Source: Bacillota bacterium (GTDB taxonomy: Bacteria > Bacillota > Desulfotomaculia > Desulfotomaculales > Pelotomaculaceae). From it: 64,000 bases of DNA. Under the pieces are notes generated by a model. The model did not search any database. It saw nothing but the letters and a program-made list of their open reading frames with translations, and was not told the origin of the DNA. Position 1 is the first letter of the stretch, and each line of letters begins with the position of its first letter. Shown here in pieces: positions 9,721 to 26,349 of the stretch. A program made the position numbers and the translations under genes. The stretch covers positions 1-64,000 of the forward strand of contig JAKPTB010000104.1 of assembly GCA_029555205.1 (NCBI GenBank). The letters run 5' to 3'.

Positions 9721-9796
<76 letters not shown>

Positions 9797-9801
9797 TAAT
9801 A

Positions 9802-9877
9802 TGGTGACCCCTACGGGATTCGAACCCGTGTTACCGCCGTGAAAGGGCGGTGTCTTAAACCGCTTGACCAAGGGGCC
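9802..9877 (-). tRNA. tRNA-Glu (anticodon TTC)
   Basis: 76 bases with an encoded CCA end. The acceptor stem begins GGCCCCT, the anticodon arm CCGCCCTTTCACGGCGG gives TTC, and the T arm contains GGTTCGAATCC. It lies five bases upstream of tRNA-Val in the direction of transcription. Confidence 0.97.
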
Positions 9878-9968
9878 ATGTGAGATGTGGGATGTGGGAT
9901 GTGTGATGTGAGATGTGAGAGAACAGATTAGATTCTCACTTCTAACCTCTCACCTCTCGCCTCTCAAT
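9878..9968. repeat. Heptad GATGTGR minisatellite with facing TCTCACY tract
   Basis: The whole gap between tRNA-Glu and tRNA-Met is low complexity. About five heptads of the form GATGTGG/GATGTGA (9884-9920 region) face a pyrimidine tract built of CTCTCACCTCTC-like units (about 9934-9966). The two halves are imperfectly complementary and could fold into one long GA/TC-rich stem around the central ACAGATTAGATT. Confidence 0.8.
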
Positions 9969-10043
9969 TGGTGGGCCCACCAGGATTCGAACCTGGAACC
10001 AGCCGGTTATGAGCCGGATGCTCTACCGTTGAGCTATAGGCCC
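9969..10043 (-). tRNA. tRNA-Met (anticodon CAT; elongator, or Ile2 after lysidine modification)
   Basis: 75 bases with an encoded CCA end. The acceptor stem starts GGGCCTA and pairs fully (G1-C72), so it is not the initiator tRNA. The anticodon arm CCGGCTCATAACCGG gives CAT. Sequence alone does not separate elongator Met from Ile2 (CAT with lysidine). Confidence 0.9.
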
Positions 10044-10050
10044 GAAAGAA

Positions 10051-10125
10051 TGGCTCCCCGAGTAGGATTCGAACCTACAACCTACCGGTTAACAGCCGGT
10101 TGCTCTACCGTTGAGCTATCGAGGA
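10051..10125 (-). tRNA. tRNA-Asn (anticodon GTT)
   Basis: 75 bases with an encoded CCA end. The acceptor stem begins TCCTCGA, the anticodon arm CCGGCTGTTAACCGG gives GTT, and the T arm contains GGTTCGAATCC. It is the first tRNA of the cluster, 63 bases after the rpoD stop. Confidence 0.97.
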
Positions 10126-19959: not shown

Positions 19960-20568
19960 TTACTTGAATGAGCACCCGCCATATCCGGCCTTGAACCTGC
20001 CGGCCAGCTCAGCCGGGTGAGGACAGGTCATCGCCTCGCTCATCACACAGACTCCCCTGGCCCCTGCCCCTAAAACATCCCTTACTTTGTCCTCCGTGAT
20101 CCCGCCAATGGCATAAACCGGGATCTCTACGGCAGCGCACACATCCCGCAAAAAAGACAGCCCCCTGGGCGGGACTCCTTTTTTGCTTTCCGTGGGAAAG
20201 ATGTGTCCCGCGATTAAATAAGCGGCTCCTAACCGCTGCGCCTCTTCCGCCTCACTTACAGAATGGACGGAAGCACCTACACGGGAAAACTGTTTGAGTC
20301 CGTTCCGGTATTTCCTCAAATCCGGCATTGCTAAATGAAGGGTATCACATTTAAGCTCTACCGCTGCTTCCTTATATTTATTTATGATCAGCGGCACCTT
20401 GTGCTTCAGGCAGATATCTCTTACGCTTTCCGCTAACCTTTTATATTCAGTTAAACTCAAATCCTTTTCCCGCAACAGAATGGCCCGGGGTTTTCCCTGA
20501 GCAATCTGGTCAAGCCGCTTTAAGAAATCATCCTGACACATCTTCCGGTTAGTCACACAAATAAGCAT
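19960..20568 (-). CDS. tenI: Thiamine phosphate synthase-family protein, probably thiazole tautomerase TenI
   Basis: 202-residue TIM-barrel protein of the ThiE/TenI family. The N-terminal L-L-R-E-K-D-L-S and the later V-G-A-S-V-H-S-V-S-E-A-E, then A-G-H-I-F-P-T-E-S-K-K-G-V-P-P-R-G-L are family motifs. The G-H-I-F-x-T-x-x-K-K-G-x-x-x-R-G form is closer to TenI, which aromatises the thiazole ring, than to ThiE, which couples thiazole and pyrimidine. That fits an operon that otherwise makes only thiazole. ThiE remains possible. It starts eight bases after thiH and is the last gene. Confidence 0.75.
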   Translation of the reverse strand: MLICVTNRKMCQDDFLKRLDQIAQGKPRAILLREKDLSLTEYKRLAESVRDICLKHKVPLIINKYKEAAVELKCDTLHLAMPDLRKYRNGLKQFSRVGASVHSVSEAEEAQRLGAAYLIAGHIFPTESKKGVPPRGLSFLRDVCAAVEIPVYAIGGITEDKVRDVLGAGARGVCVMSEAMTCPHPAELAGRFKAGYGGCSFK

Positions 20569-20576
20569 AGAATCAC

Positions 20577-21731
20577 CTAGACCCGGATGTAATCGTTATA
20601 AACCGGCTGCAGTCCCCGGCTCAGAATCATTTGATGTACTTCCCTTACACTCCGGGGATCAGAAATCTCAAACTGCTCATCGCCTTTTTCTTCTACCAGA
20701 TGTCCGCCCACCCCAACCCTGACGCCGGCGGAAATTTTGGTGGCAACCATTCCGATAACATGATCCCGGAATTGTGCTCTTTCTCTTGTGGAGATGGTAA
20801 TACCGGCAAAGGGCATAAATAAACGATAAGCGAGCATTACATGTAAGAGTTGCTTTTCCTGGACATCACGGGGATTATTCCCGGCATTATTAATATAAGG
20901 TCTTAAGCGGGGGACAGAAAAGGAAATCTCCGCATGAGGATACTTTTGTTGAATAAAATAAGCATGTAAACCGGTGGCAAAAACATCCTTGCGATAATCA
21001 TCCAGCCCCAGAAGAGCGCCGAAGGCAACCCCGCGCATGCCGGCCAGGAGCGCCCTCTCCTGGGCATGGAAACGGTAGGGATAAACCCTCTTCGGTCCTC
21101 TAACATGAACCTCCTCATACTTATCTGGATTGTAAGTTTCCTGGTAAACACAAACATAATCCGCGCCGCATTCATGTAAATATCTATATTCATTAACATT
21201 CAAGGGATAGATTTCCAAACTGACGGAGGAAAAATACTTTGCCGCCATTTTAACGGCTTCTCCAATATACGCCGGTCCCGACTGCCGGCGTGATTCCCCG
21301 GTGAGAATCAGGATGTCCTGCAGCCCGGTTGCCGCAATGGCCCTGAGTTCTCCTTCCAATTCGTTAGTTGTAAGTTTTCCCCGGCGGATTCTATTTTTAT
21401 AATTAAAGCCACAATAGACACAATGGTTTTCACAGTAGTTTGCGATATACAAAGGGGTAAAAAGGTGCACAGAATTGCCAAAATGCTTTCTCGTCTCCCG
21501 CAGTGCCCTTTGTGCCATTTCTTCCAAATAGGGCATAGCTGCCGGAGATAGGACAGCGGCATAATCATCAATGGATAATTGTTCCTTCAGCAGTGCCCTT
21601 TGCACATCCTGGCCGGTATAGTGCCGGTAGTCATATTCCCTCAGGTGCTTTAATACTTTGTCCATAAGATCTGAATCAATTGCTTCCATACCATCTAAAT
21701 AGGCCATGTGGTCAATCTTATGCAGTGCCAT
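20577..21731 (-). CDS. thiH: 2-iminoacetate synthase ThiH (radical SAM)
   Basis: Cleaves tyrosine to dehydroglycine for thiazole synthesis in anaerobes. The 384-residue product has the radical SAM cluster motif C-E-N-H-C-V-Y-C-G-F near residue 100 and the C-terminal biotin/thiamin-synthase-associated region. The ribosome binding site GGAGG lies seven bases before the ATG. It starts two bases after thiG stops. Choice of ThiH instead of the oxygen-dependent ThiO agrees with an anaerobe. Confidence 0.95.
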   Translation of the reverse strand: MALHKIDHMAYLDGMEAIDSDLMDKVLKHLREYDYRHYTGQDVQRALLKEQLSIDDYAAVLSPAAMPYLEEMAQRALRETRKHFGNSVHLFTPLYIANYCENHCVYCGFNYKNRIRRGKLTTNELEGELRAIAATGLQDILILTGESRRQSGPAYIGEAVKMAAKYFSSVSLEIYPLNVNEYRYLHECGADYVCVYQETYNPDKYEEVHVRGPKRVYPYRFHAQERALLAGMRGVAFGALLGLDDYRKDVFATGLHAYFIQQKYPHAEISFSVPRLRPYINNAGNNPRDVQEKQLLHVMLAYRLFMPFAGITISTRERAQFRDHVIGMVATKISAGVRVGVGGHLVEEKGDEQFEISDPRSVREVHQMILSRGLQPVYNDYIRV

Positions 21732-21733
21732 GG

Positions 21734-22501
21734 TTAATCCTCCAAAAACCCGGTCAAAGGACTGGAAGCCTCTGCCCCTTTGTCTAACACCCGGCCGAGT
21801 CCGGCCAGGTAAGCGGCGCGGCCGGCCTCAATGGCCAGCTTGAATGCTTTTGCCATGAGAGCAACATTGTTTGCTGTGGCTACAGCGGTATTACACATGA
21901 TGGCATCGACACCCATTTCCATAGCCTCGCAAGCCTGGGAGGGGCATCCAATGCCTGCATCAACAATGATGGGCAAATCAATTTCATCCAACAGGATTCT
22001 AATAAATTCCTTCGTACATAATCCTTTATTGGTGCCGATTGGTGCGCCCAAAGGCATAACCGCTGCGGCGCCTGCATCCACCAATGCCCTGGCCGTATAT
22101 AAATCGGGATACATATAGGGCATTACGATAAAACCTTCCCTGGCTAATATTTCCGTAGCCTTTACAGTTTCATAATTATCCGGTAGAAGGTACTTGGAAT
22201 CACGGATCACTTCCAGCTTAACAAAATCCCCGCAACCGATTTCTCTTGCCAGGCGGGCTATTCTCAGCGCTTCCCCGGCATTTCTCGCCCCGGAGGTGTT
22301 AGGTAGAATGGTAACGTCCTTTGGGATATAGTCGAGAATATTTTCTTCCCCCCCAAGATTGGCCCGGCGCAGGGCCAGTGTTACCATCTGGGCTCCCCCG
22401 TTTTCCACAACGGCTTTCACTATATCCAGGGAAAATTTACCCGACCCCAGGATAAACCTGGATTGAAATTCATGACCGCCAAGAATTAATTTATCATCCA
22501 T
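21734..22501 (-). CDS. thiG: Thiazole synthase ThiG
   Basis: Condenses dehydroglycine, deoxyxylulose phosphate and ThiS thiocarboxylate into the thiazole. The 255-residue product has [19 protein letters not shown] and the C-terminal [21 protein letters not shown] motif; V-K-L-E-V-I is where the Schiff-base lysine lies. A longer frame starts at 22531 inside thiF, but the ATG at 22501 has GGGAGGAG eight bases before it and matches the family start. Confidence 0.96.
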
Positions 22502-22523
22502 TTCTCCATCTCCTCCCATACTC

Positions 22524-23327
22524 TCATACATCTTCTATCCCGAGCAAGAGCCGCAAAACCATGTTGGCCTGGTGGCCGGCACAAATAAGCACTCTTGGCG
22601 CCATCAATCCTCTCCCGATTTTTGCTTCGCTTACAAAATCCCCGCAGACATACAGATCCCTCATTACTTTTTTGGTTTGAATCAAATTTGAACTGTCATA
22701 CCCGGCCAAACCGGAGGCGGCGACAATTTTAACACCCGGGAGTTTTTCCAAAACTGTGTTGACCAGCATTGCCTTTTCCCTGGCTTTATCAAAGGCTTCA
22801 CAAATAATATCATAGCCGCTGAATAATTCTACAACATTATCTTCTGTTACCTTTGCCGTTTTTACCTCCACCAAAATGTAGGGGTTTATTTGCTCAATCT
22901 GTTGTTTTAAGGCAATTGTTTTCGGCATCCCCAAATGACTCAGGTAATAACTCTGGCGGTTTAAATTACTGGGTTCTACAAGATCAAAATCCACCAGGAG
23001 CAACTGTCCGACACCGCTTCTGGCCAGCATAACGGCAATATTTGAACCCAGGCCTCCTAACCCGGCAATGGCCACCTTACCTTTTTTCAATCTTTCCTGA
23101 ACATGAGGCAAATGCCTTGCCATCATCATGCTCTCAAGCTCTTCTGGTCCGGGCATAACCCCTTTTGGTATGATGGTTATGGTATCATTTTCCGACAGCG
23201 GATAATCTTCTTCAATCTGAAAGCCGTTCAGGATCACAATGTCATTTTCATTGCCCACCAGCTCTCTGATTTGAAAAGCAGTTTGACACTCAAAATCTCT
23301 CTTTTGTCCGTTGACAGTTAATTTCAT
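22524..23327 (-). CDS. thiF: ThiS adenylyltransferase ThiF, with N-terminal ThiS-like domain
   Basis: Activates the C-terminus of ThiS by adenylation. Residues from about 75 on form the E1-like domain: nucleotide-binding G-L-G-G-L-G-S-N, then [14 protein letters not shown]. Residues 1-60 form an extra beta-grasp ThiS-like domain (M-K-L-T-V-N-G, I-I-P-K-G-V-M) that lacks a terminal Gly-Gly and so cannot carry sulfur. The 267-residue length reflects this fusion. It begins three bases after thiS, which does have the Gly-Gly end. Confidence 0.93.
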
Positions 23328-23330
23328 TTC

Positions 23331-23525
23331 TCAACCCCCACCAACAAAGCTGACAATTTCCAGCTTGTCTTCATTTTTGAGCATCACATCCTTGTATGCG
23401 GATTTGGGTATAATTTTTCCGTTAAGTTCCACGGCAATTAACCTGATATCATAGTTTTGAGCCACGAGAAAATCCAACAAACTTTTATTCTCCTCCAGAG
23501 AAATAACCTTTCCGTTAACTTTCAT
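23331..23525 (-). CDS. thiS: Sulfur carrier protein ThiS
   Basis: 64-residue beta-grasp protein beginning M-K-V-N-G-K and ending S-F-V-G-G-G. The C-terminal glycines are the site of adenylation and thiocarboxylate formation, giving the sulfur of the thiazole ring. A ribosome binding site AAGGAAG lies nine bases upstream. First gene of the operon, 29 bases after the leader hairpin. Confidence 0.93.
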   Translation of the reverse strand: MKVNGKVISLEENKSLLDFLVAQNYDIRLIAVELNGKIIPKSAYKDVMLKNEDKLEIVSFVGGG

Positions 23526-23553
23526 TTATTCACTTCCTTCGCCAGATAATAAA

Positions 23554-23608
23554 AATAGCACAAAATGAATTTACACCCTTTCGGTGGTGTACCCCATTTT
23601 GTGCTATT
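23554..23608 (-). promoter_or_regulatory. thi operon leader hairpin / attenuator
   Basis: A perfect 14-bp stem (23554-23567 with 23595-23608) encloses 27 bases that contain a second hairpin, ACACC/GGTGT (23573-23577 with 23586-23590). On the minus strand the stem is followed by TTTTT, so it can act as a terminator. It lies between the promoter at 23625-23653 and thiS, inside the transcript. No TPP-riboswitch core (CUGAGA ... ACCUGAUC) is present. It may also stop transcription from ppdK. A covariance search is needed to compare it with the thiS RNA motif that, as I recall, has been proposed in Firmicutes. Confidence 0.7.
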
Positions 23609-23624
23609 AAACTGTCTTTAAAAT

Positions 23625-23653
23625 AATATATGACAACTTACTTTTATTGTCAA
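23625..23653 (-). promoter_or_regulatory. thi operon sigma-A promoter with internal inverted repeat
   Basis: TTGACA (23648-23653), a 17-base spacer, and TATATT (23625-23630), giving a start near 23617. The -35 and the end of the spacer form an inverted repeat TGACAA ... TTGTCA, a possible operator. About 50 bases after the ppdK stop. Confidence 0.8.
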
Positions 23654-23700: not shown

Positions 23701-26349
23701 TCAGTCTTTGTTGATTAAGGCCGCCCGGGCTGCCGCCAGTCTGGCGATGGGTACCCGGAAGGGCGAGCAACTGACATAATCCAAGCCGATTTCCTGGCAG
23801 AACTCAATGGATGATGGTTCCCCGCCGTGCTCTCCACAGATCCCGATCAACAGGTCCGGAGTGGTCTTGCGTCCCTGTTCCACGGTCCATTTCATTAATT
23901 TACCCACACCCTTGCGGTCCAGTACCATAAAGGGGTTTTCGGACAAAATCTTCCTGTCCTGATAGGCCTGGATGAATTTACCCTCAGCATCATCCCTGGA
24001 GAAGCCCAGCGTGGTCTGGGTCAGGTCATTGGTGCCAAAGGAAAAGAAATCAGCCGCTTGAGCCAATTCATCTGCCAGCAGGGCAGCCCGGGGTATTTCG
24101 ATCATGGTACCCACGGTGTAGTGGAAAGATATTCCGGTTTCTTTAATCACTTTATCAGCCTCGGCCACGATGATCTGACGCAGGAAAGACAGTTCATTGA
24201 GATCTATTACAAGGGGAATTTCAACTTCCGGAACGGGATTGAAACCTTCCTTAACTAACTGGGCTGTGGCAAGAAAAATTGCCCTGGCCTGCATGGCATA
24301 GATTTCAGGAAAAGTGATGCCCAGGCGGCAACCCCGGTGTCCCAGCATGGGGTTGAGTTCGGACAGGGCACGGACCTTGCGCAAAAGCTCTTCCTTTTTC
24401 TCAATCTCAGCCTTGCTTCCCTCTGTCAGCCGCAGCCGGGTTAACTCCACTAGAAGCTCCTCGGCATTGGGTAAGAATTCGTGGAGGGGCGGATCCAAAA
24501 GCCTGATTGTCACAGGCAGTCCGTCCATAGCTTTTAAGATCCCGTAGAAATCACCCTGCTGCATGGGCAGCAGCTTATCAAGGGCAGCTTGCCGCTCTGC
24601 TGTGCTGGTTGACAGAATCATTTCCTGAACAATGGGCAAACGGTCCTGGGCCATAAACATATGTTCGGTACGGGTCAAACCGATTCCCTCTGCTCCAAAT
24701 TCCCTGGATTTTGCGGCGTCCTGAGGGGTATCGGCATTTGCCCTGACGCCCAGGGTGCGGATCTGGTCGGCCCACTCCAGTAGTTGTTTAAATTCAGATG
24801 ACAGCTCGGGGTCGAGCATCGGCACTTCGCCAAGGATTACATTACCTGTGGAACCGTCTACAGAAATAATGTCACCCTTCCTGACCACCAGGTCTTCTAT
24901 TGAGAAAATGTTTTTTTCGTAATCAATACTTATGGATTCGCAGCCGCAAACGCAGGGTTTGCCCATCCCCCGCGCCACCACAGCAGCGTGGCTGGTCATC
25001 CCGCCCCGGGAGGTAAGGACACCCTGGGAGGCTACAATTCCATGGATGTCGTCAGGAGTTGTTTCAACACGAACCAGGATGTTTTTTTTACCTTCCGCGT
25101 TCAGTCTTTCGGCCTCGTCAGCATCAAATACAACAACCCCAGAGGCAGCACCGGGTGAAGCCGGCAGTCCTTTGGCTATAATGTTCAGCTTTGCTCCGCT
25201 GTCGATGCGCCGGTGCAGAAGCTGATCCAGTTGTCCGGGCTCAACCCGCAGCACAGCTTCCTCACGGGTGATTAAACCTTCATCAACCATGTCCACGGCA
25301 ATTTTGATGGCAGCCTGGGCCGTACGCTTCCCGCTGCGGGTCTGCAGAATCCAGAGTTTGCCCCGCTCCACTGTAAATTCGATATCCTGCATATCCCTGT
25401 AGTGCCTGCTCAAAAGCCCGCACATTTCGGCAAACTGACTGTAAATCTCCGGCATGTCCTGCTGCAGCGCCTCAATGGGCTGCGGTGTCCGGATCCCGGC
25501 CACCACATCTTCGCCCTGGGCGTTAATCAGGTACTCACCGTAGAGTTTATTTTCCCCGGTCGAAGGGTTGCGGGTAAAAGCAACGCCGGTGCCGCTGTCG
25601 TTCCCCAGGTTGCCGAAAACCATGACCTGTATATTTACGGCCGTCCCAAGGTCGTCCGGGATTTTATTAATTCTGCGGTAAACACAAGCCCGGTCGTTAT
25701 TCCAGGAATTAAAGACGGCATGAACCGCCATAAAAAGCTGTTCCATGGGCTCCTGGGGGAAGAGGCGGCCGGTTTCTTTCTGGATTAATTTTTTATATTC
25801 AGCAATAACCTCCCGCCAATCTCCGGCGGAAAGCTGGTTGTCCAGACAAATCCGGACCTTGTCCTTCTGGCAAGCTAGAATACTTTCAAATTTGTGGTGC
25901 TCCACTCCCATCACAACGTCACCGAACATATTGATAAAGCGGCGGTAGCAGTCAAGGGCGAACCGCTCGTCTCCGGTGGCGGAAGCCAGAGCTTCCGCGG
26001 TACGGTCATTTAAACCGAGGTTTAAGACTGTATCCATCATCCCGGGCATGGAAACAGGAGCACCTGAACGGACTGATACCAGCAGTGGATTGGCCTCGTC
26101 GCCAAACCTCTTCCCAGTTTTTTTCTCCAGTTGGGCAACACCATTCCGGATTTGTTCTTTCAGCCCTGCGGGAAACTGCTGACCCTGGGCGGTGAAATCC
26201 TTACAGGCCTCCGTTGTAACAATTAAACCAGGCGGAACAGGCAGGCCAATTTTGGTCATTTCGGCCAGGTTTGCTCCCTTTCCGCCCAGCAGGTTCTTCA
26301 TCCCGGCATTTCCTTCTTCAAACAGATAAACATATTTCTTACTTGACAT
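23701..26349 (-). CDS. ppdK: Pyruvate, phosphate dikinase
   Basis: Interconverts pyruvate + ATP + Pi with PEP + AMP + PPi. The 882-residue product has the N-terminal ATP-grasp domain (L-L-G-G-K-G-A-N-L-A-E-M), the phospho-histidine domain (G-G-M-T-S-H-A-A-V-V-A-R-G-M-G-K-P) and the PEP barrel with the catalytic cysteine motif V-S-C-S-P-F-R-V-P. The open frame reaches 26421, but the ATG at 26349 has AGAGGTG at correct spacing and begins the family sequence M-S-S-K-K-Y-V-Y-L-F. It overlaps the end of its regulator gene by 11 bases, so the two are coupled. Confidence 0.96.
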   Translation of the reverse strand: MSSKKYVYLFEEGNAGMKNLLGGKGANLAEMTKIGLPVPPGLIVTTEACKDFTAQGQQFPAGLKEQIRNGVAQLEKKTGKRFGDEANPLLVSVRSGAPVSMPGMMDTVLNLGLNDRTAEALASATGDERFALDCYRRFINMFGDVVMGVEHHKFESILACQKDKVRICLDNQLSAGDWREVIAEYKKLIQKETGRLFPQEPMEQLFMAVHAVFNSWNNDRACVYRRINKIPDDLGTAVNIQVMVFGNLGNDSGTGVAFTRNPSTGENKLYGEYLINAQGEDVVAGIRTPQPIEALQQDMPEIYSQFAEMCGLLSRHYRDMQDIEFTVERGKLWILQTRSGKRTAQAAIKIAVDMVDEGLITREEAVLRVEPGQLDQLLHRRIDSGAKLNIIAKGLPASPGAASGVVVFDADEAERLNAEGKKNILVRVETTPDDIHGIVASQGVLTSRGGMTSHAAVVARGMGKPCVCGCESISIDYEKNIFSIEDLVVRKGDIISVDGSTGNVILGEVPMLDPELSSEFKQLLEWADQIRTLGVRANADTPQDAAKSREFGAEGIGLTRTEHMFMAQDRLPIVQEMILSTSTAERQAALDKLLPMQQGDFYGILKAMDGLPVTIRLLDPPLHEFLPNAEELLVELTRLRLTEGSKAEIEKKEELLRKVRALSELNPMLGHRGCRLGITFPEIYAMQARAIFLATAQLVKEGFNPVPEVEIPLVIDLNELSFLRQIIVAEADKVIKETGISFHYTVGTMIEIPRAALLADELAQAADFFSFGTNDLTQTTLGFSRDDAEGKFIQAYQDRKILSENPFMVLDRKGVGKLMKWTVEQGRKTTPDLLIGICGEHGGEPSSIEFCQEIGLDYVSCSPFRVPIARLAAARAALINKD

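Follow-up and report, generated by a model that had tools for sequence, protein, structure and literature searches.

The leader of a bacterial thiS operon is very probably a variant HMP-PP riboswitch (thiS motif) that lacks the P0/P1 antiterminator stem

What is the short RNA leader in front of thiS in the 64,000-nt stretch of Bacillota DNA analysed here (the window)? The first-pass annotation had left three choices, namely a ligand-sensing RNA, an attenuator or a simple read-through terminator of ppdK, the gene upstream, and mentioned a candidate thiS RNA motif. That motif is indeed published (Stav 2019, PMC6429828) and was then shown to be the HMP-PP riboswitch, a transcription ON switch with its aptamer lying within the terminator (Atilho 2019, PMC6478431). 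We find it very probable that the window leader belongs to this class, as a member of a subtype that has no P0/P1 antiterminator stem. The whole leader and operon lie on the minus strand, with the following features:

23648..23653 (-): -35 hexamer TTGACA (promoter scoring)
23625..23630 (-): -10 hexamer TATATT (promoter scoring)
23609..23618 (-): 5' tail, unable to form a competing P0/P1 (ON-state) stem (folding)
23595..23608 (-): 5' strand of the terminator stem, AATAGCACAAAATG (folding, repeat uniqueness, covariation)
23592..23595 (-): conserved GGGG, its first G also closing the terminator stem (conservation)
23586..23591 (-): 5' strand of P2, UACACC (covariation, conservation)
23578..23585 (-): 8-nt P2 loop, ACCGAAAG, with ACC conserved and GAAA as the mark of the subtype (conservation, subtype comparison)
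23572..23577 (-): 3' strand of P2, GGUGUA (covariation, conservation)
23554..23567 (-): 3' strand of the terminator stem, CATTTTGTGCTATT (folding, repeat uniqueness, covariation)
23551..23555 (-): U-tract of 5 U, two of them within the stem (sequence)
23533..23540 (-): ribosome-binding site, GAAGGAAG (sequence)
23331..23525 (-): thiS, sulfur carrier (TIGR01683, 74.9 bits, cut-off 37.45)
22524..23327 (-): thiF with an N-terminal ThiS-like domain (TIGR02354; PF14453 and PF00899)
21734..22531 (-): thiG, thiazole synthase (PF05690, match at G000:C59:21758-22483, E = 6e-102)
20577..21731 (-): thiH (TIGR02351, 511 bits)
19960..20568 (-): thiE-like gene, thiamin phosphate synthase/TenI family (TIGR00693, 130 bits, below the cut-off of 145)

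The element thus stands immediately 5' of HET-P/thiamin synthesis genes in the order thiS-thiF-thiG-thiH-thiE-like. The ThiF of the window carries the N-terminal ThiS-like ubiquitin domain (PF14453) despite the separate thiS gene just upstream. Elsewhere in the window, four tRNA genes are clustered at 9724-10125 (-).

The strong promoter and short leader described in the first-pass annotation hold up: TTGACA-17-TATATT at 23653-23625 (-) matches the consensus at 11 of 12 positions, and transcription would start near 23618, 7 bases past the -10 box, giving a leader of ~93 nt up to the thiS start codon at 23525. Upstream of 87 homologues, the best promoter score has a mean of 9.4 out of 12, compared to 6.9 for shuffled sequences. 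An inverted repeat at this promoter, TGACAA/TTGTCA, had been put forward as a repressor site, and it does occur in the window; however, a 6-bp inverted repeat of any kind is found in 26% of shuffled promoter stretches, the pair is present in just one of the 87 homologous promoter regions (the window's own), and the sister species (G001) does not have it. Because the repeat stands at chance level and is not conserved, an operator as the main control is barely conceivable.

Downstream of the promoter, a perfect 14-bp stem at 23554-23608 (-) closes a 27-nt loop within which UACACC and GGUGUA form an inner hairpin. The 64 kb contain no other perfect 14-mer inverted repeat with a loop of 3-40 nt (mean of 0.01 in 100 simulated windows), and the folding energy of the leader is -30.5 kcal/mol (z = -6.0), a stability reached by none of 200 shuffles. 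The stem with its inner ACACC/GGTGT hairpin had therefore been read correctly, but not the five T said to follow it: two bases of the run at 23551-23555 belong to the stem, which leaves only three T past it. The U-tract is short (U5, A, UU), as against the six or more U described for the HMP-PP riboswitch; other copies with the same GAAA loop have U-tracts of 5-8.

Related leaders carry the same structure. A covariance model built from the window and four leaders 5' of related thiS genes (R1) found 8 confident copies, the window's included, among the order's 113 genomes (the class-level search covers these same 113 genomes) and further copies across the phylum. Matches with E below 1e-6 lie nearly all 5' of thi genes, with one (L037) cut by a contig end; model matches on the plus strand are the mirror image of the hairpin. 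Scanning named genomes for the core gave 80 loci, 75 of which have the usual 2 or 4 variable loop bases. A thi gene lies downstream in 73 of these 75; it is thiS that comes first in 69, and in 72 the start of the first thi gene is no more than 300 nt away. None of the remaining five loci, which have other loop lengths, has a thi gene downstream, and these look like chance matches. Across 18 homologues, 97.6% of the alignment cells pair (80% in shuffled alignments), these alignments being fitted to the hairpin model, with slid controls dropping to 41-59%; both sides change in 13 of 20 pairs, and none of 500 shuffles reaches the observed values. The canonical set described below gives the same covariation result, and core and loop are invariant across genera. 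The alignment of related leaders proposed in the first-pass annotation thus reveals a covarying stem with a conserved tip core and loop, and bears out its suggestion of a ligand-sensing RNA through which thiS transcription must pass. In one genome (G007, L015 upstream of 1501) the motif of the 5' terminator strand (GAGCACAAAAT / AACACAAAAT) is present as two tandem copies ahead of GGGG, so that either copy could serve as the partner of the 3' strand.

The details of the tip agree with the published class. In the RNA of C. sp. Maddingley, the conserved G's occupy nt 24-27 and their pseudoknot partner is C35, with P2 common to both states (PMC6478431). Counted from the start at 23618, the window GGGG falls on nt 24-27 and the loop C on nt 35, so that the conserved G's, P2 and the loop pyrimidines, of which GGGG is the published pseudoknot partner (PMC6478431), all occur with the published spacing. 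The long terminator hairpin with an embedded aptamer, G's opposite loop pyrimidines, P2 at the tip and the position before thiS/thiF/thiG/thiH/thiE are further points of likeness. A second model (R2), trained on 28 canonical copies from other genomes than the window's, gives the window as its sole match in the genome (55 bits, E = 8e-15); its training copies were aligned with R1, and the two models are thus independent in sequences but not in alignment. By analogy with the class, the window RNA would bind HMP-PP, form the pseudoknot and act in the ON direction. Searching the leader with Rfam 15, at the gathering thresholds and at E up to 10, gave no useful match. This agrees with the earlier statement that the leader holds no TPP riboswitch (RF00059 has no match there). 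However, Rfam 15 also failed to recognise the window and 11 other copies as members of the HMP-PP riboswitch class, and the test can therefore not settle the identity. The TPP riboswitch shares with the leader the control of thiamin genes, and two copies are found elsewhere in the genome, but it differs in size, structure, ligand and regulatory sign. Going by their descriptions rather than sequences, the guanidine-IV riboswitch (also an ON switch) and the HRC-8-4 motif (PMC8632094) likewise have a terminator-like hairpin with a conserved tip; with other genes and another ligand, the likeness is one of form only.

The window copy departs from most members of the class in several respects, and these count against the assignment. 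Canonical copies (n = 72) have a 6-nt P2 loop and mostly GAA before GGGG, whereas the variant set, consisting of the window and 17 others, has an 8-nt loop ACC-GAAA-G (AAAA in two) and mostly AAT at this place, with U before GGGG in the window. More strikingly, the canonical 5' tail pairs with the 5' strand of the terminator (P0 of Stav, which is P1 of Atilho), and three pairs of this stem covary beyond all 500 shuffles. A competing 5' stem reaching -2 kcal/mol is formed by 65 of the 72 canonical but by 0 of the 18 GAAA-loop copies (Fisher p = 1e-13, relatedness of the copies being uncorrected). In the window, dG is 0 for 22-38 nt upstream of GGGG, and no length tried of the U-rich tail gave a value below 0 kcal/mol. 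Since the 5' tails of the GAAA-loop copies are AT-richer (GC of 0.21 compared to 0.39), part of this energy gap reflects composition. Because the competing 5' stem is missing, we file the window copy as a variant rather than as a standard member of the class; the subtype may already be contained in the published alignments. In a tree of ThiG, one group (93/93 support) spanning Peptococcaceae, Clostridium, Acetobacterium and Schinkia takes in the sister species and 15 of the 16 GAAA-loop rows; one row (L096) stands apart. As this grouping crosses families, the subtype follows the operon more than the species. The sister species (G001; L175:3230-3285 (-), L004, L025), with a ThiG 97% identical, has kept promoter, terminator stem and thi operon, but its aptamer core is rewritten (GGGACACCTAATGGGCGGAGGTT) and the conserved core is gone; thus the riboswitch there looks lost, changed or misassembled.

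Could the hairpin instead be no more than the intrinsic terminator of ppdK, with read-through into thiS? The gene is co-directional and ends at 23701, we saw no second hairpin terminator between it and the promoter, and full-length folds always favour the terminator. Yet the promoter sits between ppdK and the hairpin, and the invariance of core and loop across genera is at odds with a simple terminator. Among 16 related loci ppdK lies upstream in the sister species alone, where a separate hairpin follows it 3'. The element accompanies thiS also in genomes in which ppdK is not upstream, and for this reason the terminator reading, one of those offered in the first-pass annotation, fails and is highly unlikely. 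In another reading, a hairpin of the same shape is an attenuator or binds a protein and responds to some other signal than HMP-PP, the ligand having changed in the GAAA-loop subtype. The loop peculiar to the subtype (GAAA or AAAA in all 18 copies), the lack of the P0 stem and the concentration of the GAAA copies largely on one ThiG lineage would suit such a change. Against it, the window copy retains the bases described as essential (the conserved G's and the loop C, PMC6478431), precedes the same target genes and is still picked up by the canonical model, and a changed ligand is very unlikely.

As an HMP-PP riboswitch, the leader would work as follows. A sigma-70-type promoter would start the ~93-nt RNA, which, when ligand is absent, would zip into the 14-bp hairpin with its short U-tract, stopping transcription before thiS. 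Abundant HMP-PP would bind the aptamer at the hairpin tip (GGGG, P2 UACACC/GGUGUA and loop ACC); the bound ligand would hold GGGG in the loop pseudoknot and block full zippering, and polymerase would read into thiSFGHE. HET-P would then be made and joined to HMP-PP. In nearest-neighbour folding, which ignores pseudoknots and ligand, the nascent RNA is in P2 or a competing fold until it is about 52 nt long, and the terminator dominates from nt 54; HMP-PP binding would be confined to a short nascent interval before the terminator, as published. In RNAs without P1, the ligand-bound tip may itself keep the terminator open. An alternative, computed fold would pair GCAC of the terminator 5' strand with GUGU of the P2 strand, and GGGG with CC-A-CC, and would break P2; relative to P2 it lies at a median of +0.3 kcal/mol in the GAAA subtype compared to +4.6 kcal/mol in canonical copies. 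The subtype might, though this is less likely than not, switch stem-free, either by ligand and pseudoknot alone or through the GCAC/GUGU nascent fold.

The thiamin biology of the genome fits an HMP-PP sensor. ThiC is absent from the assembly (estimated to be 98% complete) and also from the other three genomes of the genus. Of the two TPP riboswitches in the genome (L001, G000:C124, and L002/L179, G000:C106), one precedes thiD and a cytosine/purine-type permease gene, and the other a 94-aa ORF and a thiamin pyrophosphokinase gene. From this gene content, HMP is probably salvaged here and the thiazole genes would be ON only with HMP-PP at hand; in a genome without thiC it is sensible to make thiazole synthesis depend on salvaged HMP-PP. 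We rejected a general tie of the riboswitch to ThiC loss, as most carriers have ThiC. Taken together, a previously unannotated leader is settled, in a class that Rfam 15 does not recognise in the copies tested. The GAAA-loop subtype suggests that one of the smallest riboswitches known also exists in a simpler form and, because it lacks the stem, provides a natural experiment on whether switching depends on the published ON-state P1 at all. For a thiC-less organism, which would have to salvage HMP, there is a clear reason for an ON switch that responds to the partner precursor.
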